This document shows positions 1 to 41,850 of a stretch of DNA of 64,000 nt, piece by piece. This stretch comes from Beroe forskalii. Its lineage: Eukaryota; Ctenophora; Nuda; Beroida; Beroidae. Position 1 is the first letter of the stretch; each line of letters begins with the position of its first letter. The DNA is taken from contig WFMF01000524.1 in the NCBI GenBank assembly GCA_011033025.1, positions 52,308 to 116,307 of the forward strand. The letters run 5' to 3'. The position numbers and the translations under genes are program-made. The notes beneath the pieces are model-generated. The model was not told the origin of the DNA. It searched no databases and was given only the letters and a program-made list of their open reading frames with translations.

Positions 1-3000
1 GAGTGGGATGTGGGAAAGTCAGGGATTGAGCAGCAGTGGGTTGCTCCACGTAGTTTGAGGGGAAGTAGCCCCGCTCCCCTCACTGTTCTCTCCCACCCAC
101 CAACTGAGGGGAAGGGGATTTGGTATGTGGGAATGTGGGAGTTTGGGAGTGGGATGTGGGAAAGTCAGGGATTGAGCAGCAGTGGGTTGCTCCACGTAGT
201 TTGAGGGGAAGTAGCCCCGCTCCCCTCACTGTTCTCCCACCCACCAACTGAGGGGAAGGGGATTTGGTATGTGGGAATGTGGGAGTTTGGGAGTGGGATG
301 TGGGAAAGTCAGGGATTGAGCTGCAGTGGGTTGAGGGGAAGTAGCCCCGCTCCCCTCACTGTTCTCTCCCACCCACCAACTGAGGGGAAGGGATTTGGTA
401 TGTGGGAATGTGGAGTTTGGGAGTGGGATGTGGGAAAGTCAGGATTGAGCAGCAGTGGGTTGCTCCACGTAGTTTGAGGGGAAGTAGCCCCGCTCCCCCT
501 CACTGTTCTCTCCCACCCACCAACTGAGGGGAAGGGATTTGGTATGTGGGAATGTGGGAGTTTGGGAGTGGGATGTGGGAAAGTCAGGGATTGAGCAGCA
601 GTGGGTTGCTCCACGTAGTTTGAGGGGAAGTAGCCCCGCTCCCCCTCACTGTTCTCTCCCACCCACCAACTGAGGGGAAGGGATTTGGTATGTGGGAATG
701 TGGGAGTTTGGGAGTGGGATGTGGGAAAGTCAGGATTGAGCAGCAGTGGGTTGCTCCACGTAGTTTGAGGGGAAGTAGCCCGCTCCCCCCTCACTGTTCT
801 CTCCCACCCACCAACTGAGGGGAAGGGATTTGGTATGTGGGAATGTGGGAGTTTGGGAGTGGGATGTGGGAAAGTCAGGGATTGAGCAGCAGTGGGTTGC
901 TCCACGTAGTTTGAGGGGGAAGTAGCCCCGCTCCCCTCACTGTTCTCTCCCACCCACCAACTGAGGGGAAGGGATTTGGTATGTGGGAATGTGGAGTTTG
1001 GGAGTGGGATGTGGAAAGTCAGGGATTGGGCAGCAGTGGGTTGCTCCACGTAGTTTGAGGGGAAGTAGCCCCGCTCCCCCTCACTGTTCTCTCCCACCCA
1101 CCAACTGAGGGGGAAGGGATTTGGTATGTGGAATGTGGGAGTTTGGGAGTGGGATGTGGGAAAGTCAGGGATTGAGCGGCAGTGGGTTGCTCCACGTAGT
1201 TTGAGGGGAAGTAGCCCCTGCTCCCCTCACTGTTCTCTCTCCCACCCACCAACTGAGGGGGAAGGATTTGGTATGTGGGAATGTGGGAGTTTGGGAGTGG
1301 GATGTGGGAAAGTCAGGGATTGAGCAGCAGTGGGTTGTCTAATGTAGTTTGAGGGGAAGTAGCCCTGCCCCCCCTCATTGTTCTCTCCCACCCACCAACT
1401 GAGGGGAAGGGATTTTGCATGTGGGAGTGTGGGAGCTTGGGAGTGGGATGTGGGAAAGTCAGGGATTGAGCTGCAGTGGGTTGCTCCACGTAGTTTGAGG
1501 GGAAGTAGCCCTGCCCCCCTCACTGTTCTCTCCCACCCACCAACTGAGGGGAAGGGATTTGGTATGTGGGAATGTGGGAGTTTGGGAGTGGGATGTGGGA
1601 AAGTCAGGGATTGAGCAGCAGTGGGTTGCTCCACGTAGTTTGAGGGGAAGTACCCCCGCTCCCCCTCATTGTTCTCTCCCCACCCACCAACTGAGGGGGA
1701 AGGGGATTTGGTATGTGGGAATGTGGGAGTTTGGGAGTGGGATGTGGGAAAGTCAGGGATTGAGCAGCAGTGGGCTGCTCCACGTAGTTTGAGGGGAAGT
1801 AGCCCCTGCCCCCCTCACTGTTCTCTCCCACCCACCAACTGAGGGGGGAAGGGGACGGTATGGGAATGTGGGAGTTTGGGAGTGGGATGTGGGAAAGTCA
1901 GGGATTGAGCAGCAGTGGGTTGCTCCACGTAGTTTGAGGGAAAGTAGCCCCGCTCCCCCTCACTGTTCTCTCCCACCCACCAACTGAGGGGGGAAGGGAC
2001 GGGTATGTGGAATGTGGTTTGGGAGGGGATGTGGAAAGTCAGGGATTGAGCCGCAGTGGGTTCATGTAGTTTGAGGGGAAGTAGTTCTCTCCCACCCACC
2101 AACTGGGAGGGGGAAGGATTTGGCATGGGAATGTGGGATGGCTTGGGAGTGGAAAGTCAGATTGGCAGCAGTGGGTTGCCCAATGTAGTTTGAGGGGGAA
2201 GTAGCCCTGCCCCTCACTGTTCTCCTCCCACCCACCAACTGAGGGGAAGGGACGGTATGTGGGAATGGGAGTTTGGGAGGGATGTGGGAAAGTCAGGGAT
2301 TGAGCTGCAGTGGGTTGCTCCACGTAGTTTGAGGGGGAAGTAGCCCGCCCCCTCATTGTTCTCTTCCCACCCACCAACTGAGGGGGAAGGGATTGGTGTG
2401 GGAATGTGGGAGTTTGGGAGGGATGTGGAAAGTCAGGGATTGAGCAGCAGTGGGCTGCTCCAATGTAGTTTGAGGGGAAGTAGCCCCTGCCCCCTCATTG
2501 TTGTTCTCTCCCACCCACCAACTGAGGGGAAGGGATTATGTGGGAATGGGAGTTTGGGGAGTGGGATGAAAGTCAGGGATTGAGCAGCAGTGGGGTTGCC
2601 CAATGTAGTTTGAGGGGAGAAAGCCCCCTGCCTCATCATTGTTCTCTCCCCACCCACCAACCGAGGGGAAGGGGATTTGGTATGTGGGAATGTGGGTTTG
2701 GGAGTGGGATGGGAAAGTCAGGGATTGGGCAGTGGGTTGCCCACGCAGTTTGAGGGGGAAGTAGCCCTGCCCCCCCTCACTGTTTCCCTCCCCACCCACC
2801 AACTGAGGGGGAAGGATTTGGGTATGTGGGAATGTGGAGTTTGGGAGTGGGATGGGAAAGTCAGGGATTGAGCTGCAGTGGGCTGCTCCACGTAGTTTGA
2901 GGGGAAGTAGCCCCGCTCCCCCCTCATTGTTCTCTCCCACCCACCAACTGAGGGGGAAGGATTTGGTATGGGAATGTGGGAGTTTGGGAGTGGGATGTGG

Positions 3001-6000
3001 GAAAGTCAGGGATTGAGCAGTGGGTTGCTCCACGTAGTTTGAGGGGGGAAGCCCTGCCCCTCACTGTTCTCTCTCCCACCCACCAACTGAGGGGAAGGGA
3101 TTTGGTATGTGGGAATGGGAGTTTGGGAGGGATGTGGGAAAGTCAGGGTTTGAGCAGCAGGGTTGCTCCACGTAGTTTGAGGGGAAGTAGCCCTGCCCCC
3201 CTCGACTGTTCTCCCACCCACCAACTGAGGGGGAAGGGGATTTGGTATGGGAATGTGGGAGTTTGGGAGGATGGGAAAGTCAGGGATTGAGCTGCAGTGG
3301 CTGCCCAATGCAGCTTGAGGGGAAGTAGCCCTGCCCCTCATTGTTCTCTCCTCCCCACCCACCAACTGAGGGGGAAGGGACGGGTATGGGAATGTGGAGT
3401 TTGGGAGTGGGAGGGAAAGTCAGGGATTGAGCAGCAGTGGGTTGCTCCACGTAGTTTGAGGGAAGTAGGCCCCTGCCCCTCATTGCTCCTCCCCCACCCA
3501 CCAACTGAGGGGGAAGGGATTTAGTATGTGGGAAATGTGGGAGTTTGGGAGGGATGTGGGAAAGTCAGGATTGGACAGCAGTGGTTGCTCCAATAGTCGA
3601 GGGGAAGTAAGCCCCGCTCCCCTCACTGTTCTCTCCCACCCACCAACTGAGGGGGAAGGGCAGTGTGGGAATGTGGGAGTTTGGGGAGGGATGAGGGAAA
3701 GTCAGGGATTGAGCTGCAGTGGTTGTCTAATGTAGTTTGAGGGGAAGTAGCCCTGCCCCCTCACTGTTCCCTCCCACCCACCAACTGAGGGGAAGGACGG
3801 GTATGTGGGAATGTGGGAGTTTGGGAGGGATGGGAAAGTCAGGGGATTGAGCAGCAGTGGGGTTGCCCCAATGTAGTTTGAGGGGAAGTAGCCCTGCCCC
3901 TCATTGTTCTCCCCACCCACCAACTGAGGGGAAGGGGATTTGGTATGTGGAATGTGGGAGTTTGGGGAGGGATGTGGGAAAGTCAGGATTGAGCAGCAGT
4001 GGGTTGCTCTACGTAGTTTGAGGGGAAGTAAACTCGCTCCCCTCACATTGTTCTCTCCCACCCACCAACTGAGGGGAAGGGGATTTGGCATGTGGGAATG
4101 TATTTGGGGTGGGATGGGAAAAGTCAGGGATTGAGCAGCAGTGGGTTGCTCCACGTAGTTTGAGGGGAAGTAGCCCTGCTCCCCCCTCATTGTTCTCCCA
4201 CCCACCAACTGAGGGGGACGGTATGTGGAATGTGGGAGTTTGGTGGGACATGGGAAAGCCAGGATTGAGCTGCAGTGGGTTGCTCCACGTAGTTTGAGGG
4301 GAAGTAGCCCTGCCCCCTCACTGTTCTCTCCCCACCCACCAACTGGAAGGGGAAGGGATTGGCATGTGGGAATGTGGGAGTTTGGGAGGGGATGGGAAAG
4401 TCAGGGATTGAGCTGCAGTGGGTTGTCTGCACGTAGTTTGAGGGGGAGCAGCCCGCCCCCCTCACTGTTCCTCCCTACCCACCAACTGAGGGGGAAGGGA
4501 TTTGGTATGTGGGAAATGTGGAGTTTGGGAGTGGATGTGGGAAAGTCAGGATTGAGCGGCAGTGGGTTGCTCCACGAAGTTTGAGGGGAAGTAGCCCCGG
4601 CCCCCTCACTGTTCTCCCACCCACCAACTGAGGGGAAGGATTGGTATGTGGGAATGTGGGAGTTTGGGAGTGGGATGTGGGAAAAAGTCAGGGATTGAGC
4701 AGCAGTGGGTTGGGTTCCAATGTAGTTTGAGGGGAAGTAGCCCTGCCCCTCACTGCCCCTCCCCACCCACCAACTGAGGGGAAGGGACGGTATGTGGGAG
4801 TGTGGGAGTTTGGGAGTGGGATGTGGGAAAGTCAGGGATTGAGCAGCAGTGGGCTCCACGTAGTTTGAGGGGGAAGTAGCCCTGCCCCCTCATTTCTCCC
4901 ACCCACCAACTGAGGGGAAGGGATTATGTGGGAATGTGGGAGTTTGGGAGGGGGATGGGAAACAGGGATTGAGCAGCAGTGGGTTACACGTAGTTTGAGG
5001 GAAGTAGCCCTGCCCCCACATTGTTCTCTCCTACCCACCAACTGAGGGGAAGGGGATTTGGCAATGTGGGAATGTGGGAGTTTGGGAGGATGGGAAAGTC
5101 AGGGATTGAGCAGCAGTGGGCTGTCTAATGGGCCGCAGGGGAAGTAGCCCTGCCCCTCACTGTTCTCTCCCACCCACCAACTGAGGGGAAGGGATTTGGT
5201 ATGTGGAATGTGGGAGTTGGGGGAGGATGGGAAAGTCAGGATTGAGCAGGGTTGTTCAATCGGCGTTTGAGGGGGTACCCCCCTGCCCCCTCACTGTTCT
5301 CTCCCACCCACCAACTGAGGGGGGAAGGGATTTGGGTATGTGGGAATGTGGGTGGGATGTGGGAAAAGTCAGGATTGAGCAGCAGTGGGTTGCTCCACGT
5401 AGTTTGAGGGAAGTTCCTGCCCCTCTCATTGTTCTCTCCCACCCACCAACTTGAGGGGGGAAGGGATTTGGTATGGGAATGTGGAGTTGGGGAGTGGGAT
5501 GTGGGAAAGCTAGGGATTGAGCAGCAGTGGGTTGCTCCACGTAGTTTGAGGGGAAGTAGCCCTGCTCCCCTCACTGTTCTCTCCCACCCACCAACTGAGG
5601 GGGAAGGGATTTGGTATGTGGGGAATGTGGGAGTTTGGGAGTGGGATGGGAAAGTCAGATTGGGCAGCAGTGGGTTGGCTCCACGTAGTTTGAGGGGAAG
5701 TAGCCCTGCTCCCCTCTGTTCCTCTCCTACCCACCAACTGGGGAAGGGATTTGGTATGTGGGAAATGTGGAGTTTGGGAGGGGATGTGGGAAAGTCAGGA
5801 ATTGAGCTGCAGTGGGTTGCTCCACGTAGCTTTGAGGGGAAGTAGCCCCGCTCCCCTCACTGCTCTCTCCCACCCACCAACTGAGGGGGGAAGGGATTTG
5901 GTATGGGAATGGGAGTTTGGGAGTGGGATGGTGGTCAGGATTGAGCAGCAGGGTTGCTCCACGTAGTTTGAGGGGAAGTAGCCCCTGCCCCTCATTGTTC

Positions 6001-6720
6001 TCCCTCCCTACCCACCAACTTGAGGGGAAGGGTATTTGGTATGTGGGAATGTGGGAGTTTGGGAGGGATGTGGGAAAGCCAGGGATTGAGCAGCAGTGGG
6101 TTGCTCCACGTAGTTTGAGGGGGAAGTAGCCCCTGCTCCCCCTCATTACTGCTCTCCCACCCACCAACTGAGGGGAAGGACGGTATGTGGGAATGTGGGA
6201 GTTTGGGGCGGGATGGGAAAAGTCAGGGATTGAGCAGCAGTGGGTTGCTCCACGTAGTTTGAGGGGAAGTAGCCCTGCCCCCTCACTGTTCTCTCTCCCA
6301 CCCACCAACTGAGGGGAAGGGACGATTTGGCATGGGAATGTGGGTGTTTGGGAGGGATGAGGGAAAGTCAGGATTGAGCAGCAGTGGGTTGCTCCACGTA
6401 GTTTGAGGGGAAGTAGCCCTGCCCCCCCCACTGTCTTCCCACCCACCAACTGAGGGGCTTTGGCATGTGAATGTGGAGTTTGGGAGTGGGATGTGGGAAA
6501 GTCAGGGATTGAGCAGCAGTGGGTTGCTCCACGAAGTTTGAGGGGAAGTAGCCCTGCCCTCACTGTTCTCTCCCCACCCACCAACTGAGGGGGGATTTGG
6601 TATGTGGGAAATGTGGGAGTTTTTGGGAGGATGTGGGTCAGGGATTGGGGCAGCAGGTTGCCCTGACGTAGTTTGAGGGGAAGTACCCCCGCTCCCCCTC
6701 ACTGTTCTCTCCCACCCTCA
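1..6720 (-). repeat. SH3-half-exon minisatellite (146-bp unit), main block
   Basis: About 46 tandem units of about 146 bp occupy this block and continue past the left edge. Read on the minus strand, each unit holds a pyrimidine tract and acceptor (CCCTTCCCCTCAG), then a coding stretch of about 60 nt beginning T|TGG TGG GTG and encoding WWVGENSEGERGYFPSNYVE, then a C/T-rich spacer. That peptide is the canonical C-terminal half of an SH3 domain and fits in phase onto the SH3 exon at 7895-7989. Many copies carry 1-nt indels, so only a subset keep the SH3 frame; copies with CTCCCCCTCAC on the plus strand keep it, and those with one C fewer do not. Units near the left edge are more uniform than those from about 2 to 6.7 kb. 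The minus-strand frames are almost free of stops, which produces long proline-rich ORFs that are not independent genes. Confidence 0.9.
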
Positions 6721-7346
6721 TTCGCAATATGTCTACTAGAATGTTCAAAAATTGAACGAACAATACTTAGGTAAAATACTCTCTTTTGTTTTCTATCCAA
6801 TGTAAAATGGCATGTACGCATTAACAACCCTAGCTTTTAGACCGAAGTTAGCAACAAGCTTTATCACAGTGATCCTTCCATGAGAGTTTCCCATTAACAT
6901 ATACCCCAGATCCTTCTTGAGAGTCGATATAATCAATAAAAAACACGACCGAGTTTTATAATTAAATACTGTACATGGGAGATTATGGTAGGATATTGAT
7001 TTTGTTTTGTAGACTGATAGGCTTACATTTTAAGGGTGAATTTCATCTTGTTTTTGGTGGCCCAAGCCTGGAGGTTATCTATATCAGTCTGGAGAGCAAA
7101 AATGATCATCCGATGTGATGATTTCCATATTTTAGAAGGTGTCGTCAGCGTACAAAACAATTTGGGTTCCCCAGAGATACAGGAAAACATGTCGTTAATA
7201 AATAATACAATAGATGGGCCGAGGATGGAACCGCGGCACACTCTGAATCTATATACTGAGGGGTCGATGTGGCCTCCTAAGACTACTTGCTGCAGCCGAC
7301 CTTCCAGATAAGACTTATGAACCCTAAGCCCAATTAAACCCAATTC
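6721..7346. mobile_element. Retroelement-derived insertion splitting the SH3 array
   Basis: This non-repetitive block of about 626 bp sits between two stretches of the 146-bp array. Its left border follows the unit word cccaccc and its right border precedes cacccaccaactgagg. It contains the reverse transcriptase remnant at 6750-7335. No clear target-site duplication or poly(A) tail was identified. Confidence 0.65.
6750..7335 (-). pseudogene. Non-LTR retrotransposon reverse transcriptase fragment
   Basis: A broken reverse transcriptase lies on the minus strand. The frame over 7023-7355 contains GSILGPSIVLFINDM, the fingers/palm motif of non-LTR reverse transcriptases (family form PQGSxLGPLLFLIYINDL). 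The catalytic YADD box follows in the +1 frame near 7150, so there is a frameshift before it. Further 3' (6870-6960) GVYVNGKLSWKDH matches the post-thumb region of Jockey/CR1-type elements. Stops and frame changes show that it is inactive. It interrupts the SH3 minisatellite, which resumes at about 7347. Confidence 0.8.
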
Positions 7347-7850
7347 ACCCACCAACTGAGGGGAAGGGATTTGGTATGTGGGAATGTGGGAGTTTGGGAG
7401 TGGGATGTGGGAAAGTCAGGGATTGGCAGCAGTGGGTTGCTCTACGTAGTTTGGGGAAGTAGCCCTGCCCCCTCACTGTTCTCTCCCACCCACCAACTGA
7501 GGGGAAGGGATTTGGCATGGGAAATGTGAGTTTGGGAGTGGGATGTGGAAAGTCAGGGATGAGCAGCAGTGGGTTGCTCCCACGAGGGAAGTAGCCCGCC
7601 TCCCTCACTGTTCTCTCCCACCCACCAACTGAGGGGAAGGGATTTGGTATGTGGGAATGGGAGTTTGGGAGTGGGATGTGGGAAAGTCAGGATTGAGCGG
7701 CAGTGGGTTGCTCCACGTAGTTTGAGGGGAAGTAGCCCTGCTCCCTCACTGTTCTCACCCACCAACTGAGGAAGAGGGATTGTGGGAATGTGGGAGTTTG
7801 GGAGTGGGATGTGGGAAAGTCAGGGATTGAGCTCAGTGGGTTCCTTTTCG
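7347..7850 (-). repeat. SH3-half-exon minisatellite, right-hand block
   Basis: Three to four more copies of the 146-bp unit lie here. In the direction of AHI1 transcription these are the first copies reached after the SH3 exon at 7895-7989. They differ from the consensus by several indels: the second copy is frameshifted, whereas the first (7711-7765) stays in frame with two fewer codons. Confidence 0.85.
7711..7765 (-). CDS. AHI1: AHI1 exon 14 candidate: second half of SH3 domain (first array copy)
   Basis: This is the first acceptor-plus-exon copy downstream of SH3 exon 13. The exon reads T TGG TGG GTG ... and ends with GYFPSNYVE, the last beta strands of an SH3 domain. The two bases left over from exon 13 (GG) plus T make Gly, giving DTDG|WWV across the junction, as expected for an SH3 n-Src/distal region. 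Dozens of other copies to the left could serve instead, so the copy actually spliced is unknown. No stop codon or downstream donor was assigned, and the 3' end of the gene may lie outside the window. Confidence 0.55.
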
Positions 7851-7894: not shown

Positions 7895-7989
7895 CCGTCA
7901 GTGTCGATGTAAATCAGCTTCACGTATTTGCCTGCCATCAGTGATATCTCGTCACTTCTTTGAGAGGCGTAATCGTGCAGTATCTGCAG
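7895..7989 (-). CDS. AHI1: AHI1 exon 13: first half of SH3 domain
   Basis: The translated exon contains ILHDYASQRSDEISL, which matches the SH3 opening of jouberin (ALYDYxANRSDEL), followed by GKYVKLIYIDTDG. An acceptor, CCCGTTCAG, precedes it and a donor, GG|GTAATT, follows. It enters at phase 0 from exon 12 and leaves at phase 2, which fits the WWVGEN coding segment of the array exactly. In human AHI1 this C-terminal SH3 domain mediates protein-protein interaction; the partner is not visible here. Confidence 0.85.
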
Positions 7990-8740: not shown

Positions 8741-8845
8741 CTGCAGTTCCTGAGACGAGGGGAGTGGGGGAGCGGGAGGAGGGGGATCTGGAGGGGGAAA
8801 CAGTGAGGAGCTTCTCTTTGATGGCGTCCATCTGCACTGTTCCTT
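8741..8845 (-). CDS. AHI1: AHI1 exon 11: helix and Ser/Pro linker (copy with donor)
   Basis: The exon has acceptor CCCCTCGCAG and donor CTGCAG|GTGCTT. It encodes EGTVQMDAIKEKLLTVSPS followed by a Ser/Pro-rich tail. The MDAIKEKLLTV helix lies where jouberin has a similar helix (KMQLVKQRLETV) between propeller and SH3. Entry and exit are both phase 1 and match exons 10 and 12. A second copy of most of the exon lies at 8900-8999, inside the adjoining minisatellite. Confidence 0.65.
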
Positions 8846-10245
8846 CTGCGAGGGGTGTTGTCAAGGGGGGGGGTGTCATTTGAGAGGGGGTTGTCAAGGG
8901 TTCCTGAGACGAGGGGAGTGGGGGAGCGGGAGGAGGGGGATCTGGAGGGGGACACAGTGAGGAGCTTCTCTTTGATGGCGTCCATCTGCACTGTCCCTTC
9001 TGCGAGGGGGGCTGTCAAGGGGGGGGTGTCATTTGAGAGGGGGTTGTCAAGGGGTGTGATTTGAGAGGGGTTGTAAAGGGGTGTGATTTGAGAGGGGGGT
9101 TGTCAAGGGGTTTGATTTGAGAGGGGTTTTTCAAGGGGGGGGGGTGTGATTTGAGAGGGGGTTGTAAAGGGGTGTGATTTGAGAGGGGGTTTGTAAAGGG
9201 GTGTGATTTGAGAGGGGTTTGTCAAGGGGTGTGATTTGAGGGGGTGTCAAGGAGGTGATTTGAGAGGGGGGTATGTCAAGGGGTGTGATTTGAGAAGGGG
9301 TTGTCAAGGGGTTTGATTTGAGAGGGGGTATGTCAAGGGGTGTGATTTGAGAGGGGGGTTGTCAAGGGGTGTGATTTGAGAGGGGCTGTCAAGGGGTGTG
9401 ATTTGAGAGGGGGTTGTCAAGGGGTGTGATTTGAGAGGGGGTGTCAAGGAGGGTGATTTGAGAGGGGGGTTGTCAAGGGGTGTGATTTGAGAGGGGGGTT
9501 TGTCAATGGGTTTGATTTGAGAGGGGGTTGTCAAGGGGTGTGATTTGAGAGGGGAGTTGTAAAGGGGTGTGATTTGAGAGGGGGTTTGTCAAGGGGTGGG
9601 GTTTGTCAAGGGTGTGATTTGAGAGGGGGTTGTCAAGGGTGTGATTTGAGAGGGGGTTGTCAAGGGGTGTGATTTGAGAGGGGTTGTCAAGGGGTGTGAT
9701 TTGAGAGGGGGGCTGTCAAGGGGTGTGATTTGAGAGGGGGGTTGTCAAGGGGTGTGATTTGAGAGGGGGTGTCAAGGGGTGTGATTTGAGAGGGGGCTGT
9801 CAAGGGGTGTGGTTTGAGAGGGGGGTTGTCAAGGGGTGTGATTTGAGAGGGGGCTGTCAAGGGGTGTGATTTGAGAGGGGGCTGTCAAGGGGTTTGATTT
9901 GAGAGGGGGGTTGTCAAGGAGTGTGATTTGAGGGGGGTTGTCAAGGGGTCTGATTTGAGAGGGGGTTGTAAAGGGGTGTGATTTGAGAGGGGGGTTGTCA
10001 AGGGGTGTGATTTGAGAGGGGGTGTCAAGGAGGGTGATTTGAGAGGGGGTATGTAAAGGGGTGTGATTTGAGAGGAGGGCTGTCAAGGGGTTTGATTTGA
10101 GAGGGGGTTTGTCAAGGGGTGTGATTTGAGAGGGGGTTGTCAAGGGGTTTGATTTGAGAGGGGGGTTGTCAAGGGGTTTGATTTGAGAGGGGTATGTCAA
10201 AGGGTGTCGTTTGAGGGGGGGAGGTTGTCAAGGGGTGGTGTCATT
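8846..10245 (-). repeat. Minisatellite upstream of AHI1 exon 11 (about 28-bp unit)
   Basis: Roughly 45 units occur, with plus-strand consensus TGATTTGAGAGGGGGTTGTC followed by AAGGGGTG. Indels in the G runs are frequent. The array runs up to the exon 11 acceptor and encloses the exon duplicate at 8900-8999. On the RNA strand it is a long run of CT-rich sequence. The long ORFs on the minus strand (repeats of KSHPLTT and similar) result from the repeat and are not counted as genes. Confidence 0.9.
8900..8999 (-). pseudogene. Duplicate of AHI1 exon 11 without its donor
   Basis: This copy is nearly identical to exon 11, including the acceptor CTCGCAG and the codons for GTVQMDAIKEKLLTVSPS. At its 3' end the sequence runs from GGAACC directly into a CTTGACAACC repeat unit, so the donor seen in the other copy is missing. 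It is most simply a tandem duplication made together with the surrounding array. Confidence 0.7.
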
Positions 10246-17120: not shown

Positions 17121-17357
17121 ACAATATGTTAAAATTACCAACAATAAAATCGTTAATAACTGCAATTAAGTTCTTCATTTTCCTTTTCCGTGAAATGAAA
17201 TCATCATTTCAAACAATGCATATGATTATATTATGGGGCGGGTTGTAGGGCATTTTCTTGACTTAAGACTACGGGGTTGTATCCGATTCTGCAACGATCT
17301 AGCATGCCAATGCAAAAAACATGTACTCATACCACTAGAAATAGTTAACTACCAGCA
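17121..17357. other. AHI1 intron, unique AT-rich sequence
   Basis: Nothing coding was recognised. The stretch joins the exon 7 array to the 184-bp MITE and appears to be ordinary intronic sequence. Confidence 0.5.
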
Positions 17358-28547: not shown

Positions 28548-30240
28548 CTGAGAGGGTGGGTAGAAAGGGGCTGAGTCAAGGGAGGGGGGTTAGTAAGGGT
28601 GTCAGCAGGATGTCAGACACCTGGAAGGGGTAGAGAGGGGCTGAGTCAAAGGGGGGGGGGGGTTAGTAAGGGTGTCAGCAGGATGTCAGACACCTGGGGG
28701 TAGAGAGGGCTGAGTCAAGGGGGTTAGTAAGGGTGTCAGCAGGATGTCAGACACCTGGGGGTAGAGAGGGCTGAGTCAAAGGGGGGGTAAGGGTGTCAGC
28801 AGGATGTCACAAGGACACCTGGGGGTAGAGAGGGGCTGAGTCAAAGGGGGTTAGTAAGGGTGTCAGCAGGATGTCAGACACCTGGGGGTAGAGAGGGGCT
28901 GAGTCCAAGGGGGGGGGGGTTAGTGGGGTGTCAGCAGGATGTCAGACACCTGGGGGGTAGAGAGGGGCTGGAGTCAAGGGGGGGGGGGGTTAGTATGGGT
29001 GTCAGCAGGATGTCAGACACCTGGAGAGGGTAGAAAGGGGCTGAGTCAAGGGAGGGGGGTTAGTAAGGGTGTCAGCAGGATGTCAGACACCTGGGGGTAG
29101 AAAGGGGCTGAGTCAAAGGGGGGGTTAAAGGTGTCAGCAGGATGTCAGGACACCTGGAGTGGGGGCAGAAAGGGCACAAGGGGGGGTAGTAAGGGGTCAG
29201 CAGAATGTCAGACACCTGGGGGGTAGAAAGGGCTGAGTCAAAGGGGGGGTAAGGGGTGTCAGCAGAATGTCAGACACCTGGGGGTAGAAAGGGGCTGAGT
29301 CAAGGGGGGGGGGTAGTAAGGGTGTCAGCAGAATGTCAGACACCTGGGGGTAGAAAGGGGCTGAGTCAAGGGGGGGTAGTAAGGGTGTCAGCAGGATGTC
29401 AGACACTGGGGGTAGAAAGGGCTGAAGGGTGTCAGCAGAATGTCAGACACCTGGGGGTAGAAAGGGCTGAGTCAAGGGGGGGGTAAGGGTGTCAGCAGGA
29501 TGTCAGACACCTGGAGGGGCAGAAAGGGGCTGAGCCAAAGTTATGGGGGGTAGTAAGGGTGTCAGCAGAATGTGGACACCTGGGGGTAGAAAGGGGCTGA
29601 GTCAAGGGGGGGTTAGTGGGGTGTCAGCAGGATTTCAGACACCTGGAGGGGGCAGAGAGGGCTGAGTCAAGGGGGGGGTTGGCAAGGGTGTCAGCAGGAT
29701 GTCAGACACCTGGGGGAAAGGGGCTGAGTCAAAGGCGGGGGGGGTAGTATGGGTGTCAGCAGAATGTCAGACACCTGGGGTAGAAAGGGGCTGAGTCAGC
29801 GGGGGGGTTAGTAAGGGTGTCAGCAGGATGTCAGACACCTGGAGGGGGTAGAGAGGGGCTGAGTCAAAGGGGAGGGGTTAGTAAGGGTGTCAGCAGAATG
29901 TCAGACACCTGGGGGTAGAAAGGGGGCTGAGTCAAGGGGGGTAAGGGTGTCAGCAGAATGTCAGACACCTGGGGTAGAAAGGGGCTGAGTCAAAGGGGGG
30001 TAGTGCGGGGTGTCAGCAGGATGTCAGACACCTGGAGGGGGGTAGAAAGGGGCTGAGTCAAGGGGGGGTAGTAAGGGTGTCAGCAGGATGTCAGACACCT
30101 GGAGGGGGGTAGAAAGGGGCTGAGTCAAGGGAGGGGGAGGGGGTAGCAAGGGTGTCAGCAGGGTGTCAGACAACTGGAAGGGTAGATTGAGAGGGTAGAA
30201 AGGGGCTGAGTCAAAGGCGGGGGGTAGAGAGGGTCTCAGC
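28548..30240 (-). repeat. Minisatellite of acceptor plus first 18 nt of exon 3
   Basis: About 28 units of roughly 55-63 bp occur. On the minus strand each has CCCTTTCTACCCCCAG followed by GTGTCTGACATCCTGCTG, exactly the acceptor and first 18 nt of AHI1 exon 3, then ACACCCTTACTACCCCC and CTTGACTCAGCC. In some stretches the unit is a multiple of three and reads on as repeated VSDILLTPLLPP. G-run length varies a great deal. Confidence 0.93.
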
Positions 30241-31141: not shown

Positions 31142-33545
31142 GGCAACTTGGTAATCTGTCGACGGACAGTTACCGGTCGGTAACCGGTCGGTTACCGGCC
31201 ACTTAACGGTCACTTAACGGTCGGTTAACGGTCGGTTGACGGACGGTTACCGCCCACGGACAGTTACCGGTCGGTTGACGGATACTTAACGGACGGACAG
31301 TTACCGGTCGGTTACCGGTCACTTAACGGTCGGTAAACGGACGGTTACCGCCCACGGACAGTTACCGGTCGGTTAACGGTCGGTTACCGGTCACTTAACG
31401 GTCGGTTAACGGACGGTTACCGCCCACGGACAGTTACCGGTCGGTTAACGGTCGGTTACCGGTCACTTAACGGTCGGTTAACGGACGGTTACCGCCCACG
31501 GACAGTTACCGGTCGGTTAACGGTCGGTTACCGGTCACTTAACGGTCGGTTAACGGACGGTTACCGCCCACGGACGTTACCGGTCGGTTACCGGTCACTT
31601 AACGGTCGGTTAACGGACGGTTAACGCCCACGGGCGTTACCGGTCGGTTTAAGGTCACTTAACGGTCGGTTAACGGTCGGTTACCGCCACGGGCAGTAAC
31701 CGGTCGGTTAACGGTCAGTAACCGGTCACTTAACGGCCAGTTAGTAATGCAATCAATTGGATGCCTTATATATTATTTAACTAGCATATTATCTAATTGA
31801 TAAACTATCGTTTACACTAACCTCTAGTTTACACTAACCTTTATTAACCTCTAGTTTAGTAAGGCGAGAAATACCAATTTCATCATCATATAGCTAGTAA
31901 TGTCGTTGTGCCATAACATGAAGGTGTGAATCTCACGATAGGAACATGGGGGATTTCTTAATGAGGATTTTTGTAGCAATGGTTAGTATCATTGAAAAAT
32001 AGCACCTTTTCCGGAGCAGAGTTAACCCTTTCAGCTTCATAATTTCCTTTAATCGTCAGTGCAGTTCTCATCTCTTCAGTTCTACTACGAGTACATGACA
32101 TGTCCTGGAGGTTGATGCGAATCCAAATTCGGGAAGAGGAAGTATACTCAGGGACGACGTGTTAGGGAAGTGGGTGCTTGGTAGTTGCTGTCGGAACAGC
32201 GGGACTGTTTCCTTGGTAGTGTCAGGAACAGGCAGGACAAATACACTCATCCGTCTCATCAAGTAAAGTTTAAGCAGGAACTGTCATCTGACAGGGGCTC
32301 CCTTTCATCATGGCTTCACCCGTCTGGTGGTCAGCAAAGAAAGAGGCTTCATTGGGACCTACTCACTGTTGAACACACCAACACCTGTGAGGGCATGTGG
32401 TTTCATGCCAAGAAGCACAGGCGGCTTGGAACTTGACAAAAGCCAAATCAAACTCCTCTAACGCTGGATTGCTCTGTGTGTATTCATGTGGGTGAAGAAA
32501 CCTTACCAGATTGGTCCTTCCATCATACAGAACTTCCTTGAGAGTCCCTGAACTGATGAGACAGAATTTTTGATTAAGATATATCATGTATTTGATGAAT
32601 GAATTTTTTTACCAAGATATATAATTGATTTAAACTTTGTTTTATTAGCTGATGCTCTGATGCGGCATGGGAGGCTATTCATATAATTTAAATATTAAAA
32701 TTTCTACTTAGTACAACATTCCTTACCCATGATAAACGGATGGCAATTTTTACTCATCAGTTAAACGGTGTGCCATATATTATATTTATAAGTGTTTGTC
32801 AATGCTTCAATGGAAATATATTATTATACATCATCTAATAAGTGCCATTAAAGCATTAAAATTGGTTTTAACTAATTACATAATCATGTAGCATCCGAAA
32901 TGGAGAGGTTTGCAATTGCTTTGACTGAAGAGGGGTTTGAGGGTCTGGAAAAACAATTGAGATGCTTAAAACGGCCTTTGGCGACCAGTAACTGACTTTG
33001 GCGGTAACCGTTCTAAGTTCGTTAACCGACCGTTAAATGACCATTGGCTTGGGTAACCGACCGGTAACTGTCCGTGGGCGATTTACCGATCGTTAACTTT
33101 CGACGTTATGTTTACCACCGGGAACCGACCGGTAACTGCCCGTGGGCGTAACCGTCCGTTAACCGACCGTTAAAGTGACCGGTAACCGACCGCTAACCGA
33201 CCGTGGCTTTAACTCGTGGGCGTTAACAGTCCGTTAACCGCCGTTAAGTGACCGTAACCGACCGTTAACTTTCTCTGTGGGGTAACCGTCCGTTAACCGA
33301 CCGTTAACCGATCGTTAAGGGACGTAACTGTCTGTGGGCGGTAACCGTCCGTTAACCGACCGTTAAGTGACCGACAACCGAGCCGTGACTGTCGAATAAA
33401 TTAAGTGTCCGTTAACCGGCCATAACTGTATTGGGCAGTAACCGTCGTTAACCGACCGTTAACCGACCGTTAACTGACCGGTAACCGACCGATAACCGAC
33501 CGTTAACCGACCGGTAACTGTCCGTCGACAGATTACCAAATTACC
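31142..33545 (+). mobile_element. Merlin-type DNA transposon with tandem-repeat inverted termini
   Basis: A 2404-bp element lies between exact 8-bp duplications CTTTATAC. The tips are GGCAACTTGGTAATCTGTCG and, inverted, GGTAATTTGGTAATCTGTCG. Each terminus is then an array of several hundred bp (31160-31740 and 33000-33530) of GGTCGGTTAACGG, CGGTTACCG and CACTTAACGG words in opposite orientations, which makes long structured inverted repeats. The centre holds a broken DDE transposase at 32085-32520. It lies in the AHI1 intron between exons 1 and 2. Confidence 0.88.
32085..32520 (+). pseudogene. Merlin/ISXO2-like DDE transposase remnant
   Basis: Pieces in different frames match the DDE domain of the ISXO2/Merlin family: GKWVLGSCCRNSGTVSLVV, LSSDRGSLSSWL (second catalytic Asp), VEHTNTCEGMWFHAKKH (catalytic Glu) and CVFMWVKK near the C-terminus. 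Frame changes and stops break the gene, so it is not functional. The family moves by cut and paste and makes 8-9 bp target duplications, which agrees with what flanks the element. Confidence 0.85.
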
Positions 33546-33903: not shown

Positions 33904-34734
33904 CTGAGAGGGAAGCTAGTAATACTACAGGACTACCTAATACTATTAAACAAGGGGAGTGTTTACTGTTATGCCTTCCCTGTTTATGCTATGTATTCAA
34001 AACCCTATAGGCACCAGGTACCGTGTGCAATAAGTGCCCTGTAGTGATATCCGGACTCCTTGCAATAAGTGTGACATAATAATTTATTTCACACAGTTGG
34101 GCCAAGTTTAACAGTGATCATAACAATTTTATATTTGCAGTAGAACAGTTGGGCAATTTCAGTAGTTGGGCAAACAGTACCTTCAAATCTTGATTTAAAA
34201 CATTTCCTTGTGTTTGAAAATATAATATTTTTTCGGCCTAATTATAGTGCATAATTCAGTTTAATAACTCGTAAAATTACTAAACTCAGCATTAAAAAAC
34301 CTCAGCCTTCGGCCTCGGTTTTTAATGCCATAACACACACTCGGGCCTTCGGCCTCGTGGCTGAATATTACGTTAGTAAAGACCGTTACTAAACCCTTCA
34401 GTAGTGCTCCTTTCTACAAGACAATCAAACTGCTGGCTGCAGGTCAAAACTATCTCACTAGCGGCTGTCTACAACTACAACGAACCGTGCGTCTCTGAAC
34501 TTTGTTACACCCCAGATACAGGACTATCTACAACTACAAAACTATCTACTACTACAAAACTATCTACTACTACAGGACAATCTACAACTAGCAGTTGACT
34601 AGGCTACTACTGTGTGGATATAAGGTATTTAAAACTGCCAAAGCTTCAGTGAAAGATTTTCTGTAGCTCAATTTGATCCAGTTCATAATCCCAGGCAGTT
34701 AAAATTCCTATGAAAGTATGAAGTTGAGGTCAAA
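33904..34734. other. AHI1 intron with a diverged copy of the exon 1 acceptor region
   Basis: AT-rich sequence. At about 34440-34510 a diverged copy of the exon 1 start (minus strand CAGAGACGCACGGTTC) is followed by ACTATCTACTACTACAAA repeats. CCTTCGGCCTCG words occur at 34300-34355. Confidence 0.55.
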
Positions 34735-34959
34735 GGCCTAACCCGAGTGTGGAGGGGAGGTGTTTACCACTAACCCGAGGGTGGAGGGGAGGTGTTTACC
34801 ACTAACCCGAGTGTGGAGGGGAGGTGTTTACCACTAACCCGAGTGTGGAGGAGGTGTTTCACTAACCCGAGTGTGGAGGGAGGTGTTACCACTAACCCGA
34901 GGGTGGAGGGAGGTGTTTACCACTAACCCGGGGTGGAGGTGGTACCACTAACCCATTAG

Positions 34960-36240
34960 GGAGGTGTTTAAGTGACCAGTGTAACCGGAGGTGTTTGCCA
35001 CCGGTAACTTGGTGTGGAGGAGTTTACCACTAGTTAGTGTGGACCGTTAAGTGAGGGGTGTTTACCACTAACCCTCAGTGTGGCGGGAGGTGTTTCCCGT
35101 TAACCGACCGTGTAACCGATCGTTTACCACCGGTAACTGTCTGTGTGGAGGTAAGGTGTTTACCACCGACCGTTAAGTGACCGTAACCGACCGTTTACCA
35201 CTAACCGAAGTGTGGAGTGTCCGTTAACCGTGTGGAGTAACTTCCGTGATTGTGGAGAGGAGGTTTTACTAACCCGAGGGTGGGGAGGTGTTCGGTAACC
35301 GACCGAGTGTGGAGGAGGTGTTTACCACTAACTTGAGGTGGTGGAGGTGTTTGCCACTTACCCTTTGTACAATCAGGTTTGCCACTAACCCGAGTGTGGA
35401 GGAGGTGTTTACCACTTGCATTGTGGAGGGGGTGTTTCGTTGTTGTACTCGGGTGGATCAAGGTGTTTAAATAAAGTGTGGAGGGAGGTGTTTACCACTG
35501 TCCGGAGTGTGGAGGGGTGTTTGCCACCTTGAAGTGTGGAGGGAGGTGTTTACCACCTTCGGAGTGAAGGGAGGTGTTTACCACTAAGCGAGTGTGGAGG
35601 GAGTTCGTAGCACTGGCACTGGAGGGAGGTGTTCCCAACAAGGCGAGTGTGGAGGGTTGACGTAGGTCAAAAGCCTGGGTCAGTAGCGGCTGTACTGTAC
35701 TGAACCTAGCGTCTCTGGAAGGGAAGCTAGTAATACTACAGGACTACCTAATACAGGACTACCTAATACTATAACAAGGGGAGTGTTTACTGTTAGTAGT
35801 GCTCAGCACATACAAGACAGTCAAACTGCTGGCGTAGGTCAAAAGCCTGGGTCAGTACAAAAAACAGTGTGTACTGAAACCACTCTGGTGGAGGGAAGCT
35901 TTAATACTACAGGACATAATGTTTAGGACTACCAGTACTATAACAAGGGGTTTACCAGTTGGGCAAGTAGTGCCTTCAAATCTTGATTAAAACTGCTGGT
36001 GTGTTTCAAAAGCCTAATTGCCATTTGGCTGTAATGGGTACTGAAAGCACTAAGGACTCATGCAAAAATTGTCTTATGTTTGCATTAAAAACCTCGGTGT
36101 GGAGGAAGCTCGGTTTTCACTTAGTAACACTCTGGAAGGAGGTGTTTAATACAGGACTATTTAATACTTTACTCACTATAACAAGGGAGTTAGTAGTGCT
36201 GTTATACAGACAGTCAAACTGCTGGCAGGTCAAAAGCCTG
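34960..36240. other. Mosaic stretch mixing minisatellite with 33.0-34.5 kb sequence
   Basis: Units of the 32-bp repeat alternate every 20-60 bp with pieces resembling 33000-34450: CCGTTAAGTGACCG words of the Merlin terminus, the exon 1 start (35655-35720, 35830-35860, 36225-36245), TGCCTTCAAATCTTGATT, and AGTCAAACTGCTGG. The order follows that of the source region. A consensus of two different reads, or a real nested duplication, would look like this. Confidence 0.7.
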
Positions 36241-39200
36241 GGTCAGTGTGGAGGGAGGTGTTTACCACTAACCCGAGTGTGGAGGGAGGTGTTTACCATA
36301 ACCCGAGTGTGGAGGGGAGGTGTTTACCACTAGCTTGAGTGTGGAGGGGAGGTGTTTACCACTAACCCGAGTGTGGAGGGGAGGTGTTTACCACTAACCC
36401 GAGTGTGGAGGGGAGGTGTTTACCACTAACCCGAGTGTGGAGGGGAGGTGTTTACCACTAACCTGAGTGTGGAGGGGAGGTGTTTACCACCACCAGTGTG
36501 GAGGGAGGTGTGGAGGGGAGGTGTTTCACCACCAACCTGAGTGTGGAGGGGAGGTGTTTACCACCAACCCGGAGTGTGGAGGGAGGTGTTTACCACTAAC
36601 CCGAGTGTGGAGGGGAGGTGTTTACCACCAACCCCGAGTGTGGAGGGAGGTGTTTACCACTAACCCGAGTGTGGAGGGAGGTGTTTACCACCAACCCGAG
36701 TGTGGAGGGTGTGGAGGGGAGGTGTTTACCACTAACCCGAGTGTGGAGGGGAGGTGTTTACCACTAACCCGAGTGTGGAGGGAGGTGTTTACCACCAACC
36801 CGAGTGTGGAGGGGAGGTGTTTACCACCAACCCGAGTGTGGAGGGAGGTGTTTACCACCAACCTGAGTGTGGAGGGAGGTGTTTACCACTAACCCGAGTG
36901 TGGAGGGAGGTGTTTACCACTAACCCGAGTGTGGAGGGGAGGTGTTTACCACCACCGAGTGTGGAACCCGAGTGTGAGGGGAGGTGTTTACCACTAACCC
37001 GAGTGTGGAGGGAGGTGTTTACCACTAACCCGAGTGTGGAGGGGAGGTGTTTACCACCAACCCGAGTGTGGAGGGGAGGTGTTTACCACCAACCGAGGTG
37101 GAGGGAGGTGTTTACCACCAACCCGAGTGTGGAGGGAGGTGTTTACCACCAACCCGAGTGTGGAGGGAGGTGTTTACCACCAACCCGAGTGTGGAGGGAG
37201 GTGTTTACCACCAACCCGAGTGTGGAGGGAGGTGTTTACCACCAGTGTGAGTGTGAGGGGAGGTGTTTACCACTAACCCGAGTGTGGAGGGAGGTGTTTA
37301 CCACCCAACCCGAGTGTGGAGGGAGGTGTTTACCACTAACCCGAGTGTGGAGGGGAGGTGTTTACCACTAACCCGAGTGTGGAGGGGAGGTGTTTACCAC
37401 TAACCCGAGTGTGGAGGGGAGGTGTTTACCACTAACCCGAGTGTGGAGGGGAGGTGTTTACCACTAACCCGAGTGTGGGGGAGGTGTTTACCACCAACCC
37501 GAGTGTGGGAGGTGTTTACCACTAACCCGAGTGTGGAGGGGAGGTGTTTACCACTAACCCGAGTGTGGAGGGGAGGTGTTTACCACTAACCCGAGTGTGG
37601 AGGGGAGGTGTTTACCACTAACCCGAGTGTGGAGGGGAGGTGTTTACCACTAACCCGAGTGTGGAGGGGAGGTGTTTACCACTAACCCGAGTGTGGAGGG
37701 GAGGTGTTTACCACTAACCCGAGTGTGGAGGGGAGGTGTTTACCACTAACCCGAGTGTGGAGGGAGGTGTTTACCACCAGTGTGGAGGGAGGTGTGGAGG
37801 GAGGTGTTTACCACCAACCTGAGAGTGTGGAGGGGAGGTGTTTACCACTAACCCGAGTGTGGAGGGGAGGTGTTTACCACTAACCCGAGTGTGGAGGGGA
37901 GGTGTTTACCACTAACCCGAGTGTGGAGGGGAGGTGTTTACCACTAACCCGAGTGTGGAGGGGAGGTGTTTACCACTAACCCGAGTGTGGAGGGAGGTGT
38001 TTATAACCCGAGGGTGGAGGGAGGTGTTTACCACCAACCCGAGGGTGGAGGGGAGGTGTTTTACCACCAAGTGTGGAGGGGAGGTGTGGAGAGTGGGAGG
38101 TGTTTACCACCAACCCGAGTGTGTGGAGGGGAGGTGTTTACCACTAACCCGAGTGTGGAGGGGAGGTGTTTACCACTAACCCGAGTGTGGAGGGGAGGTG
38201 TTTACCACTAACCCGAGGGTGGAGGGGAGGTGTTTACCACTAACCCGAGTGTGGAGGGGAGGTGTTTACCACTAACCCGAGTGTGGAGGGGAGGTGTTTA
38301 CCACTAACCCGAGTGTGGAGGGGAGGTGTTTACCACTAACCCGAGTGTGGAGGGGAGGTGTTTACCACCAACCGAGAGTGGAGGGGAGGTGTTTACCACT
38401 AACCCGAGTGTGGAGGGGAGGTGTTTACCACTAACCCGAGTGTGGAGGGAGGTGTTTACCACCAACCCGAGTGTGGAGGGGGAGGTGTTTACCACCAACC
38501 CGAGTGTGGAGGGGAGGTGTTTACCACTAACCTGAGTGTGGAGGGGAGGTGTTTACCACTAACCCGAGTGTGGAGGGGAGGTGTTTACCACTAACCCGAG
38601 TGTGGAGGGGAGGTGTTTACCACTAACCCGAGTGTGGAGGGGAGGTGTTTACCACCAACCCGAGTGTGGAGGGAGGTGTTTACCACCAACCCGAGTGTGG
38701 AGGGGAGGTGTTTACCACCAACCCGAGTGTGGAGGGAGGTGTTTACCACCAACCCGAGTGTGGAGGGGAGGTGTTTACCACTAACCCGAGTGTGGAGGGG
38801 AGGTGTTTACCACTAACCCGAGTGTGGAGGGGAGGTGTTTACCACTAACCCGAGTGTGGAGGGGAGGTGTTTACCACTAACCCGAGTGTGGAGGGGAGGT
38901 GTTTACCACTAACCCGAGTGTGGAGGGGGAGGTGTTTACCACCAACCCGAGTGTGGGGGAGGTGTTTACCACCAACCCGAGTGTGGAGGGAGGTGTTTAC
39001 CACCAACCCGAGTGTGGAGGGGAGGTGTTTACCACTAACCCGAGTGTGGAGGTGTTTACCACCAACCCGAGTGTGGAGGTGTTTACCACTAACCCGAGGT
39101 GGAGGGGAGGTGTTTACCACCAACCCGAGTGTGGAGGGGAGGTGTTTACCACTAACCCGAGTGTGGAGGGAGGTGTTTACCACCAACCCGAGTGTGGAGG

Positions 39201-40499
39201 GAGGTGTTTACCACTTGAGTGTGGAGGGAGGTGTTTACCACTAACCCGAGTGTGGAGGAGGTGTTTACCACCAACCCGAGTGTGGAGGGAGGTGTTTACC
39301 ACTAACCCGAGTGTGGAGGGGAGGTGTTTACCACTAACCCGAGTGTGGAGGGGAGGTGTTTACACCACCAACCGAGTGTGGAGGGAGGTGTTTACCACTA
39401 ACCCGAGTGTGGAGGGGAGGTGTTTACCACTAACCCGAGTGTGGAGGGGAGGTGTTTACCACTAACCCGAGTGTGGAGGGGAGGTGTTTACCACTAACCC
39501 GAGTGTGGAGGGGAGGTGTTTACCACTAACCCGAGTGTGGAGGGCTGAGTGTGTTTACCACTCAACCCGAGGTGGAGGGAGGCTTACCACCAACCGGGAG
39601 TGTGGAGGGGAGGTGTTTACCACCAACCCGAGTGTGGAGGGGAGGGGAGGTTCACCACCAACCGGGAGTGTGGAGGGTTTTACCACCAACCCGAGTGTGG
39701 AGGGGAGGTGTCACCACCAACCCGAGGTGGAGGGGAGGTGCCACCACCAACCCGAGTGTGGAGGGAGGTGTTTACCACCAACCCGAGTGTGGAGGGGAGG
39801 TGTTTACCACCAACCCGAGTGTGGAGGGGAGGTGTTTACCACCAACCCGAGTGTGGAGGGGAGGTGTTTACCAACCCCTGAGTGTGGAGGGAGGTGTTTA
39901 CCACCAACCTGAGTGGAGGGGAGGTGTTTACCACCAACCTGAGTGTGGAGGGGAGGTGTTTACCATCAACCGAGTGTGGAGGGGAGGTGTTCACCACCAA
40001 CCCGAGTGTGGAGGGGAGGTGTTTACCACTAACCCGAGTGTGGAGGGGAGGTGTTTACCACTAACCCGAGTGTGGAGGGGAGGTGTTTACCACTAACCCG
40101 AGTGTGGAGGGGAGGTGCTTACCACCAACCCGGAGTGCAGAGGGGGAGGTGTTTACCATCAACCCGAGTGTGGAGGGGAGGTGTCATCACTAACCCGAGG
40201 GTGGAGGAGGTCACCACCAAGTGTTTTACCACCAACCCCCGAGTGTGGAGGGGGGAGGTGTTTACCACTAACCGAGTGTGGAGGGGAGGTGTTTACCACC
40301 AACCCGAGTATGGAGGGGGAGGTGTTTACCACCAACCCGAGGGGAGTGTACCACTGAGGGAGGGGGCTTACTACCAACCCGGGAGGTGGAGGGAGGTGTT
40401 TACCACCAACTCCGAGGTGGAGGGGGGAGGTGTTTACCACCAACCGAGTGTAGAGGGGAGGTTACCACCAACCCGAGTGTGGAGGGGAGGTGTTTCACT

Positions 40500-41850
40500 T
40501 ACCAACCGAGTGTGGAGGGTGTGGGAGGTGTTTACCACTAACCCGAGTGTGGAGGGAGGTGTTTACCACTCAACTCGAGTGTGAGGGGGGAGGTGTTTAC
40601 CACTCAACCTGAGTGTGGAGGGGGTAAAGCTACCACTCAACCCGGAGGGTGGAGGGGGAGGTGCCACCACCAACCTGAGTGTGGAGGGAGGTGTTTACCA
40701 CCAACCCGGAGTGTGGAGGGAGGGCTTCACCTCACCAACCCGAGTGTGGTGTGGAGGTGGGAGAGGTTTTTACCACCACCAACCCGGAGTGGAGGGAGGT
40801 GTTTACCACTCAACCCGAGTGTGGGGGGGAGGTGCTCTACCACTCAACCGAGTGTGGAGGGGGAGGTGTTTTACCACCAACCCGAGTGTGGAGGGGAGGT
40901 GTTTACCACCAACCCGGGAGTGGAGGGGGAGTAAAAAGTTTACCACCAACCCGGGAGTGTGGTGGGAGTGTGCTTCACCACTCAACCCGAGTGGAGGGGG
41001 AAGGCCCAAAACCCAGGGGGGAGGAGGGTTTAAAATGGGAGGGGGTTTACCAACCCGAGGCGGGAGGAGGGAGGTCAACCCCAAACCCCAGGGTGGAAAG
41101 GGAAACCAACCCCCAAAGGGGAGGGGTCACCACCAACCCGAAAATGTGAGGAGGGCCCCCAAAAAACCCAGGTGGAGGGGAAAATACCAACCGGGGGGGA
41201 ACACAACCCGAAATGTGGGGGGAGGCTTTAACATCAAAACCCGGGGGGGACCCCTGTCCCAACCCCGGGGGGGAGGCAAAAAAACAACCCGGGGTGGAGG
41301 GAGGCAACCCCCCAACCCGTGAGGGGTTTTACCACCAACCCCAGTGGGGAGGGGGGGCCACCAACCGAAATGGAGGCAGGGTCAACCCGAGTGGGCCATT
41401 TAAACAACCCCAAAGGGGAACCCCTTCCCCAGGTGGGGGGGAAGGGGTTTCCAAACCCCATGTGTTTTCAAATTTTAGGCCCCCCAACCCGAGGGGGGGA
41501 GGTACAACCCCTTTGAGGGGGGGAAACCACCCAAACCCCCCGGAGGGTTCCCCCAACCCCAGGGAGGGAAATTTGCACCCAAACCCGAGCGTGGGGGGTG
41601 CCAGGAGGGGGGTGTTTCCCAAACCAGGGGAGGGGTTTTAACCCGGGAGGCCACACAACCCCGAGGTGGGGGAGGGGCTCCCAAACCACCAACCCGGGGG
41701 TGGAGGTGCCTTTACCAACCCGGAAGGGGAGGAACCCCCAACCCGGGGTTGGGGGGCCCCCAAGGTGGAGGGGTGCCCACCAACCCGGGGGGAGGGGGGC
41801 CACCTGGGGCCCCCCGAGGGAGGGGTCCAACCTTTCCCCCTCCAAACTCC
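40500..41850. other. Degraded end of the 32-bp array
   Basis: Unit identity declines rapidly toward the right, with homopolymer runs (GGGGG, CCCCC, AAAA) and lost spacers, until only AACCC and GGTGGAGGGG words remain. It resembles low-coverage long-read consensus rather than normal divergence. Confidence 0.6.

Follow-up and report, generated by a model that had tools for sequence, protein, structure and literature searches.

The AHI1 (jouberin) gene of the ctenophore Beroe forskalii carries minisatellites on its exon borders. These arrays are probably boundary-spanning minisatellites of the kind named mirages in amphioxus, derived from tandem duplications across splice sites, enlarged by minisatellite expansion and tolerated by virtue of the copy nearest the exon. 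AHI1 is the minus-strand gene, with its exons in order, of a 64,000-nucleotide stretch of DNA (here called the window) that spans positions 52308-116307 of contig C608 in an assembly of 216,145,372 bases and 1134 contigs. The number of AHI1 borders affected is six, if a two-copy duplication beside an abutting array (array E, below) is counted. Arrays account for 55% of the 39.6 kb between the exon at 33903 and the gene end, when the array at the terminal exon (A) is taken as unbroken from window position -5421 to 6717.

Arrays at the exon borders of AHI1

Tandem Repeats Finder (TRF) places the arrays where a sequence-only reading of the window had put them. That reading held that each unit of four arrays in AHI1 introns has an acceptor AG together with the first nucleotides of the exon next to it, and both TRF and a junction scan agree: in arrays A, B, C and D, every unit runs from the end of an intron through the AG of the acceptor into the exon that follows. 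For these acceptor arrays, copies of the respective junction core were counted in a scan that tolerated up to 6 mismatches (Hamming distance). The scan gave 85 matches for A (49 of them in the window), 30 for B, 47 for C and 18 for D, and the AG is kept in 84/85, 30/30, 47/47 and 18/18 of these, respectively. There were no matches on the opposite strand, and the mean in 20 Markov-shuffled sequences was 0.0. After subtraction of the true sites within A and B, the gene has 178 decoy acceptors, of which 143 lie in the window, in keeping with the earlier estimate of well over a hundred in the pre-mRNA.

Arrays A to F are all read on the minus strand. The first part of array A (1-6717, TRF) has units of about 145 bp, in which some 55 nt of intron end are joined to some 90 nt of the terminal exon of AHI1; the exonic part corresponds to the second half of the SH3 domain, in the exon frame WWVGENSEGERGYFPSNYVE. 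The second part (7346-7842, TRF) lies beyond an insertion at 6718-7345. As a whole, the array runs from 7842 to 5.4 kb left of the window, where the true acceptor is found at window position -5421. The acceptor units described for this array stand, with the qualification that it is interrupted and that its exon lies outside the window. The insertion contains a frame resembling reverse transcriptase, a likeness judged by eye from the list of open reading frames.

Array B (12076-13997) has units of about 61 bp of the form CTGATAAATCCCC..CTCCGCAG^GATGTTCCCATCTCCCAGCT, where the caret marks the splice junction, and its 30 acceptor copies include the true one at 12095. Array C (15135-17111) consists of 34-bp units, TTTTAACTTGTTCTCACAG^GAAGCTACGACCGTA, with 47 decoy acceptors; close to the exon, at 15237-15392, a longer unit of 59 bp is also present, from which the 34-bp one seems to have been shortened. 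Array D (28558-30186) has units of about 65 bp, TTGACTCAGCCCCTTTCTACCCCCAG^GTGTCTGACATCCTGCTGAC, with 18 decoys at the match threshold and a TRF copy number of 23. The genuine exon edge, a true acceptor in both cases, lies inside the array for A (-5421) and B (12095). In C and D, the closest match within the threshold lies 54 and 146 nt, respectively, away from the true acceptor; even so, their units resemble the true junction (±25 nt) much more than shuffled sequences do.

The exon at 28392-28547 is flanked by two arrays, acceptor array D and donor array F. Array F (27290-28391; outer limits by eye, TRF 27325-28356) has units of 26 to 90 bp with the donor ..GGTG^GTTAATGACGCTGC. The donor core occurs 12 times and its GT is kept in 12/12, and this is the array that had been reported to begin at the donor at 28391; the last exon base of the true donor is 28392. 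The sequence-only reading also had an array begin at a duplicated exon at 8845, and here the duplication was found and the exon-carrying units were not. The acceptor at 8845 lies within a duplication of 2 x 154 bp (8746-9053), in which the upstream exon copy has no donor. Array E (9023-10237, TRF), which abuts this duplicated acceptor, is built of 28/57-bp units that repeat a segment resembling a branch point and pyrimidine tract, and its 28-mers are without exon sequence. Array G (26462-26962, plus strand, TRF) does begin, as had been proposed, at the stop codon of a nested gene: its 33-bp units open with the final codons of a calmodulin-like gene and its stop codon (26484-26486).

Several acceptor units include, upstream of the AG, a motif that by eye resembles the branch-point consensus: CTGAT in B, TTAAC in C and TTGAC in D, and, in two of the motor-gene loci described below, CTAAC (L021) and CTGAC (L024). 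In a third such locus, L027, the corresponding motif CTAAT sits in exon-derived letters. Some units hold AG^GT, namely those of D and of the kinesin loci L024 and L031.

Relation of the units to each other and to their introns

Do the arrays belong to a single mobile family, or has the same process been repeated at each border? A comparison of 13 units in 78 pairs found only one pair, B and D, above z 3 (z 5.3; score 29 versus a shuffled maximum of 22), and the units of B and D are both rich in poly-C. Related sequence at independent sites, as in introners or a mobile intron family, was thus not found. This absence of kinship among the units of different borders means that no mobile family is involved, and it upholds the earlier view of a repeated process.

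The units of A, B, C, D and F each match their own splice junction, and none of 200 shuffles did as well. At the other end of the same intron, no unit match was detectable (p 0.61, 0.095, 0.83, 0.36 and 0.66 for A, B, C, D and F, the far intron borders being approximate for C and D). The gain of an intron by tandem duplication needs the same unit at both intron ends, whereas in 5/5 of these AHI1 arrays only one end carries it. Because a unit matches its own junction and not the other end of its intron, the founder should have been a segment straddling one border. It would have been neither an array inside the intron that spread to the exon nor an intron born by duplication.

The exonic part of array A has no excess of changes at third codon positions, substitutions being 0.026, 0.051 and 0.044 at positions 1, 2 and 3. 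The AG columns are not specially conserved in A, B and D, where 16%, 36% and 54% of columns, respectively, are as conserved as they are; the junction motif of C was not located in the consensus. Exonic columns are less variable than intronic ones in B and D and more variable in C. With no third-position excess and many columns kept as well as the AG, the copies look non-coding and without clear constraint. Nothing suggests that the array copies are maintained for use.

Arrays and exon edges in other genes

The sequence-only reading expected that arrays in other genes would also be placed non-randomly with respect to exons. This was examined in myosin-head and kinesin genes, whose exons were located by Pfam profile. 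The sample comprises 19 stretches with 60,623 bases, 40 exon matches and 80 edges. These stretches were picked before their sequence was seen, yet not randomly: those of myosin were chosen for many exons, those of kinesin cover 14 of 20 requested exons, which were taken mostly in score order with large or stop-containing matches skipped, and L024 is the start of a long-intron gene. With a minimum array length of 100 bp and at least three copies, 11 arrays qualify.

Five of these 11 arrays cross an exon edge by at least 5 nt, where 0.56 would be expected by chance, and none of 20,000 simulations reached that number; the expectation of non-random placement thus survived. With a crossing of at least 8 nt, the count is 4/11 versus 0.46 expected (10 of 20,000 simulations). 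When arrays that cross an edge or lie within 35 nt of it are taken together, there are 7 versus 1.20 expected, a number reached in 0/20,000. If each array is kept in its own locus, the means fall to 0.36 (at least 5 nt), 0.28 (at least 8 nt) and 0.88 (crossing or near), and the observed counts are reached by 0, 3 and 1 of 20,000 simulations, respectively.

Both kinds of splice site are represented among the crossing arrays. In myosin locus L021, an acceptor array at 2474-2748 has eight units TTTCAG^TTCAACCCGTT. In kinesin locus L024, two arrays sit on opposite sides of one exon: an acceptor array at 426-872 with fifteen units CTGACGTGCGCGTTTCCGCAG^GTTCATCCA, in which the exon part is only GTTCA (5 nt), and a donor array at 1063-2024 with twenty-two units of AAAG^GTTAGG and 18 nt of exon. 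Kinesin locus L027 has an acceptor array at 1-500, cut by the locus end, in which a 56-mer contains about 45 nt of exon, and kinesin locus L031 has a donor array at 601-915 with a 36-mer. The arrays within 35 nt of an edge are L021 336-1195 and L027 672-983. The sample is small: four loci have edge-crossing arrays, and two of them (L024 and L027), to judge from their contig and the order of the profile matches, are probably one gene. In the batch of seven exons sampled last, arrays of 100 bp were absent, and there was no array in 3/5 of the longer stretches (L020, L022 and L023).

A further 16 stretches (L004-L019, 151 kb in all) were taken at random loci and excluded from the statistics. Tandem repeats cover 13.9% of them, close to the 13% given for another ctenophore genome, that of Hormiphora californensis (PMC8527503), and 26 arrays reach at least 100 bp. 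At least 4/26 adjoin likely acceptors, a figure drawn from at most 21 arrays, each viewed on its two acceptor-type sides, with five arrays of L013, L017 and L006 read a second time. For one of the four (L017 1777-1971), the neighbouring exon, some 30 nt downstream, encodes a CG-1 domain (Pfam 5e-12). The others (L013 3091-3240, L013 4027-4227 and L006 7649-8412) are at or just upstream of probable acceptors whose exons have no Pfam support. In contig C291, at about 171200-174900, two kinesin exon matches are repeated in tandem, three and four times, with a spacing of about 0.8-1.2 kb; this is a larger-scale tandem duplication that takes in whole exons.

Origin and persistence of the arrays

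How could arrays come to lie across splice sites without disabling the gene? We propose that a short segment straddling a border, either an intron end with an exon start or an exon end with an intron start, would have been tandemly duplicated once. The array would then enlarge and homogenise as an ordinary minisatellite, by slippage, unequal exchange or conversion, and the exon-proximal copy would retain a complete splice site beside an intact exon. In exon definition, a splice site is paired with the other end of its exon. In AHI1, this pairing would favour the exon-proximal copy, and the remaining copies would land in the intron and drift there as non-coding DNA. Where acceptor units include a branch-point-like motif, duplication may leave the proximal copy with a whole 3' splice site, whereas a duplicated segment that was shorter would destroy the site and hence be lost. 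From the sequence, we infer that the exon-proximal acceptor is the one used, and if so the duplication would be tolerated because splicing uses the copy beside the intact exon. The donor-side arrays (F, L024 and L031) and the stop-codon array G show that the process is neither confined to acceptors nor limited to splice sites in general.

Several points weigh against duplication followed by tolerance. Neutral arrays are expected to be mostly intron-internal, and neutral tolerance alone therefore fails to explain the excess at edges. Only in array A do the units become more alike towards the exon (a divergence gradient away from the exon with rho 0.64), as expected from growth or homogenisation on the exon side, and B, C and D show no such gradient. 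In the motor-gene sample, 75/80 edges are without an edge-crossing array, and most exon borders are profile matches. For AHI1 itself, a chance estimate with present residual intron lengths gives 0.87 edge arrays of 9 (P(≥5) = 3e-4; P(≥6) = 1.2e-5), figures that are after the fact and descriptive only, since the gene was chosen for its pattern. Candidate causes of the excess are initiation biased to borders, persistence through selection on the exon that holds the end unit constant, and short ancestral introns.

Initiation may be actively biased to splice junctions by transcription- or splicing-linked damage, or by R-loops or unusual structures at polypyrimidine tracts. This possibility, though rather doubtful, has two points in its favour: the edge excess requires a bias in either initiation or persistence, and several arrays show strand asymmetry, with a GC skew of 0.55-0.85 in the kilobases that contain B, D and E. 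By contrast, donor arrays F, L024 and L031 and stop-codon array G are not at polypyrimidine tracts, and they speak against a cause limited to such tracts. The excess could instead be apparent, if arrays were born at a fixed rate per intron when introns were short, so that a founder unit often overlapped an exon edge. AHI1 introns minus their arrays measure 470-1571 bp for A-F, and several neighbouring myosin matches are separated by about 150-750 bp. Nevertheless, present residual lengths still predict fewer than one edge array for AHI1, as given above, and placement within each motor-gene locus predicts 0.36 where 5 are seen, so that this account appears unlikely.

Repeated acceptors might also be functional, providing a choice or a delay at the intron end that regulates AHI1 output. 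Splice dinucleotides are indeed retained in nearly all copies, yet in A, B and D a sizeable part of the other columns is conserved just like the AG, and the exon copies of A are free of coding constraint; a regulatory role is accordingly very improbable. Even less can be said for intron birth by tandem duplication under the AGGT proto-splice-site model, which has been proposed for amphioxus globins (PMC3087553). The AG^GT within some units (D, L024 and L031) would suit this model, but the five AHI1 arrays clearly match one intron end and not the other, the lowest far-end p (0.095) being that of B. It is just as hard to credit the arrays to an artefact of long-read assembly. Two intervals of the window (33950-36240 and 40900-41850) look blended, and variation within units is largely in homopolymer runs, as such an artefact would have it. 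Against this, the units are distinct and have diverged, and on four contigs (C608, C225, C897 and C212) they sit exactly at splice borders, a pattern that no error mode known to us would yield; copy numbers may still be off.

The AHI1 locus and the assembly

In-order tblastn matches to human AHI1 extend from 33884 down to the terminal exon at window position -5422, in locus L002; the match list also contains weak out-of-order matches and many inside array A. The reconstructed SH3 peptide matches PDB 4esr ('Jouberin', 6e-12), sixth in a list headed by neutrophil cytosol factor 1, and Pfam finds SH3 and WD40 in the joined peptides. When the joined WD40 exons were compared with a protein database, there were three weak WD40-type matches from metagenome sources and no AHI1.

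Among the minus-strand exons, the first half of the SH3 domain lies at 7895-7989 (tblastn, splice borders, Pfam SH3 and PDB 4esr), and WD40 exons lie at 11947-12095 and 14893-15113 (tblastn and borders). The exon at 8741-8845 is assigned by position and splice signals, without a match to human AHI1. The exon between D on its acceptor side and F on its donor side (28392-28547) has a weak match (E 0.34) that is in order. The nested calmodulin-like gene occupies 25819-26486 on the plus strand, with two coding exons (25819-26073 and 26289-26486) supported by Pfam EF-hands and PDB calmodulins.

Other arrays of the locus are not at a known exon edge. TRF finds two minisatellites at 31169-31743 and 33052-33525, of GGTTAACGG/CCGTTAACC type, which are inverted copies of each other with 1.3 kb between them. 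A third, large array of 32-bp units, on the minus strand at 34738-41850, lies on the upstream side of the AHI1 exon at 33903. In the two blended-looking intervals, letters of the 33.9-kb exon or of another minisatellite are interleaved with the 32-bp array unit; they look like a blended long-read consensus and not real DNA, and array copy numbers depend on the assembly. Similar palindromic repeats of GATCAGCGCT type occur at 17350-17540 of the window and in L009 at 1266-1564 and 4285-4665.

Scans of the window for transfer RNAs and Rfam families gave no matches, and neither did a comparison of array C with plasmids. A second haplotype was not found for the three exons searched (AHI1, kinesin on C897 and myosin on C225); in that search, the myosin exon had relatives at 77-83% identity. 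In the mitochondrial cox1 contig (C1134), TGA reads as Trp, which indicates code 4. AGA/AGG at what we take to be conserved arginines, and ATA at presumed isoleucines, support this assignment. For the published mitogenome of B. forskalii individual Bf201606, no deviation from code 4 is reported (PMC6991124).

Relation to known systems

The closest parallel is found in amphioxus. Tandem repeats across the exon-intron borders of Adh3, with units of 10-72 bp, were named mirages; in BflGb6, the units are on the acceptor side and 150-160 bp long, with 6 copies in one haplotype and 3 in the other, and in BflGb9 an exon has a duplicate at its 3' boundary (PMC3087553). Regular splicing was suggested by reverse transcription PCR, and somatic instability was reported at Adh3 (PMC3087553). 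Further mirage genes are PGBD5 and TnC (PMC3902484). As in amphioxus, units span the exon-intron boundary on the acceptor or donor side and many keep AG or GT (PMC3087553, PMC3902484). Exon and intron sequence are joined in each unit of A, B, C, D and F, as well as in L021, L024 (5 nt of exon on the acceptor side), L027 and L031, and splice signals are kept in almost all of the AHI1 copies, as counted above. The amphioxus unit lengths bracket those found here, which are about 26-145 bp.

The present case differs in its lineage, a separate phylum (Ctenophora), in that six borders are affected in one gene and in the number of copies, up to 85 versus the 6 and 3 of the BflGb6 haplotypes. It also includes an excess over chance in sampled other genes. 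In their structural features, the arrays agree with mirages. The intron-gain model of Rogers (as cited in PMC3087553) resembles our proposal in that a tandem duplication includes a splice signal, but it requires that a new intron has one and the same unit at either end, and here only one end matches detectably. In Caenorhabditis elegans, the CeRep25B minisatellite is over-represented in introns flanking alternative, multiply spliced exons (PMC4039745). It is a single dispersed family with regulatory-type motifs, for which the portion of the report consulted describes no splice-junction copy, whereas the units found here differ from site to site. In the literature searched, by title or abstract, there was no earlier report of such arrays in ctenophores or genome-wide. 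As far as that literature shows, the lineage, the scale in one gene and the sampled excess over chance are new.

A curiosity of a handful of amphioxus genes is thereby found at the other end of the animal tree, and in a form that can be counted: among the sampled genic minisatellites, a large share is at exon edges rather than in intron interiors. More tentatively, ctenophore exon borders might be preferred birthplaces of minisatellites genome-wide, through a standing process tied to transcription, splicing or replication at these sites. The basis for this suggestion, to which we give somewhat less than even credence, is the 5/80 sampled motor-gene edges together with the six AHI1 borders. If it were true, a sizeable share of intron length would be reiterated splice site, and long ladders of decoy acceptors or donors would be present in much of the pre-mRNA of the genome. 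How does the spliceosome choose one acceptor among 20-85 that are near-identical? The arrays raise this question, and also whether exon borders are hot spots of tandem duplication in the germ line, which bears on how introns lengthen and shift.

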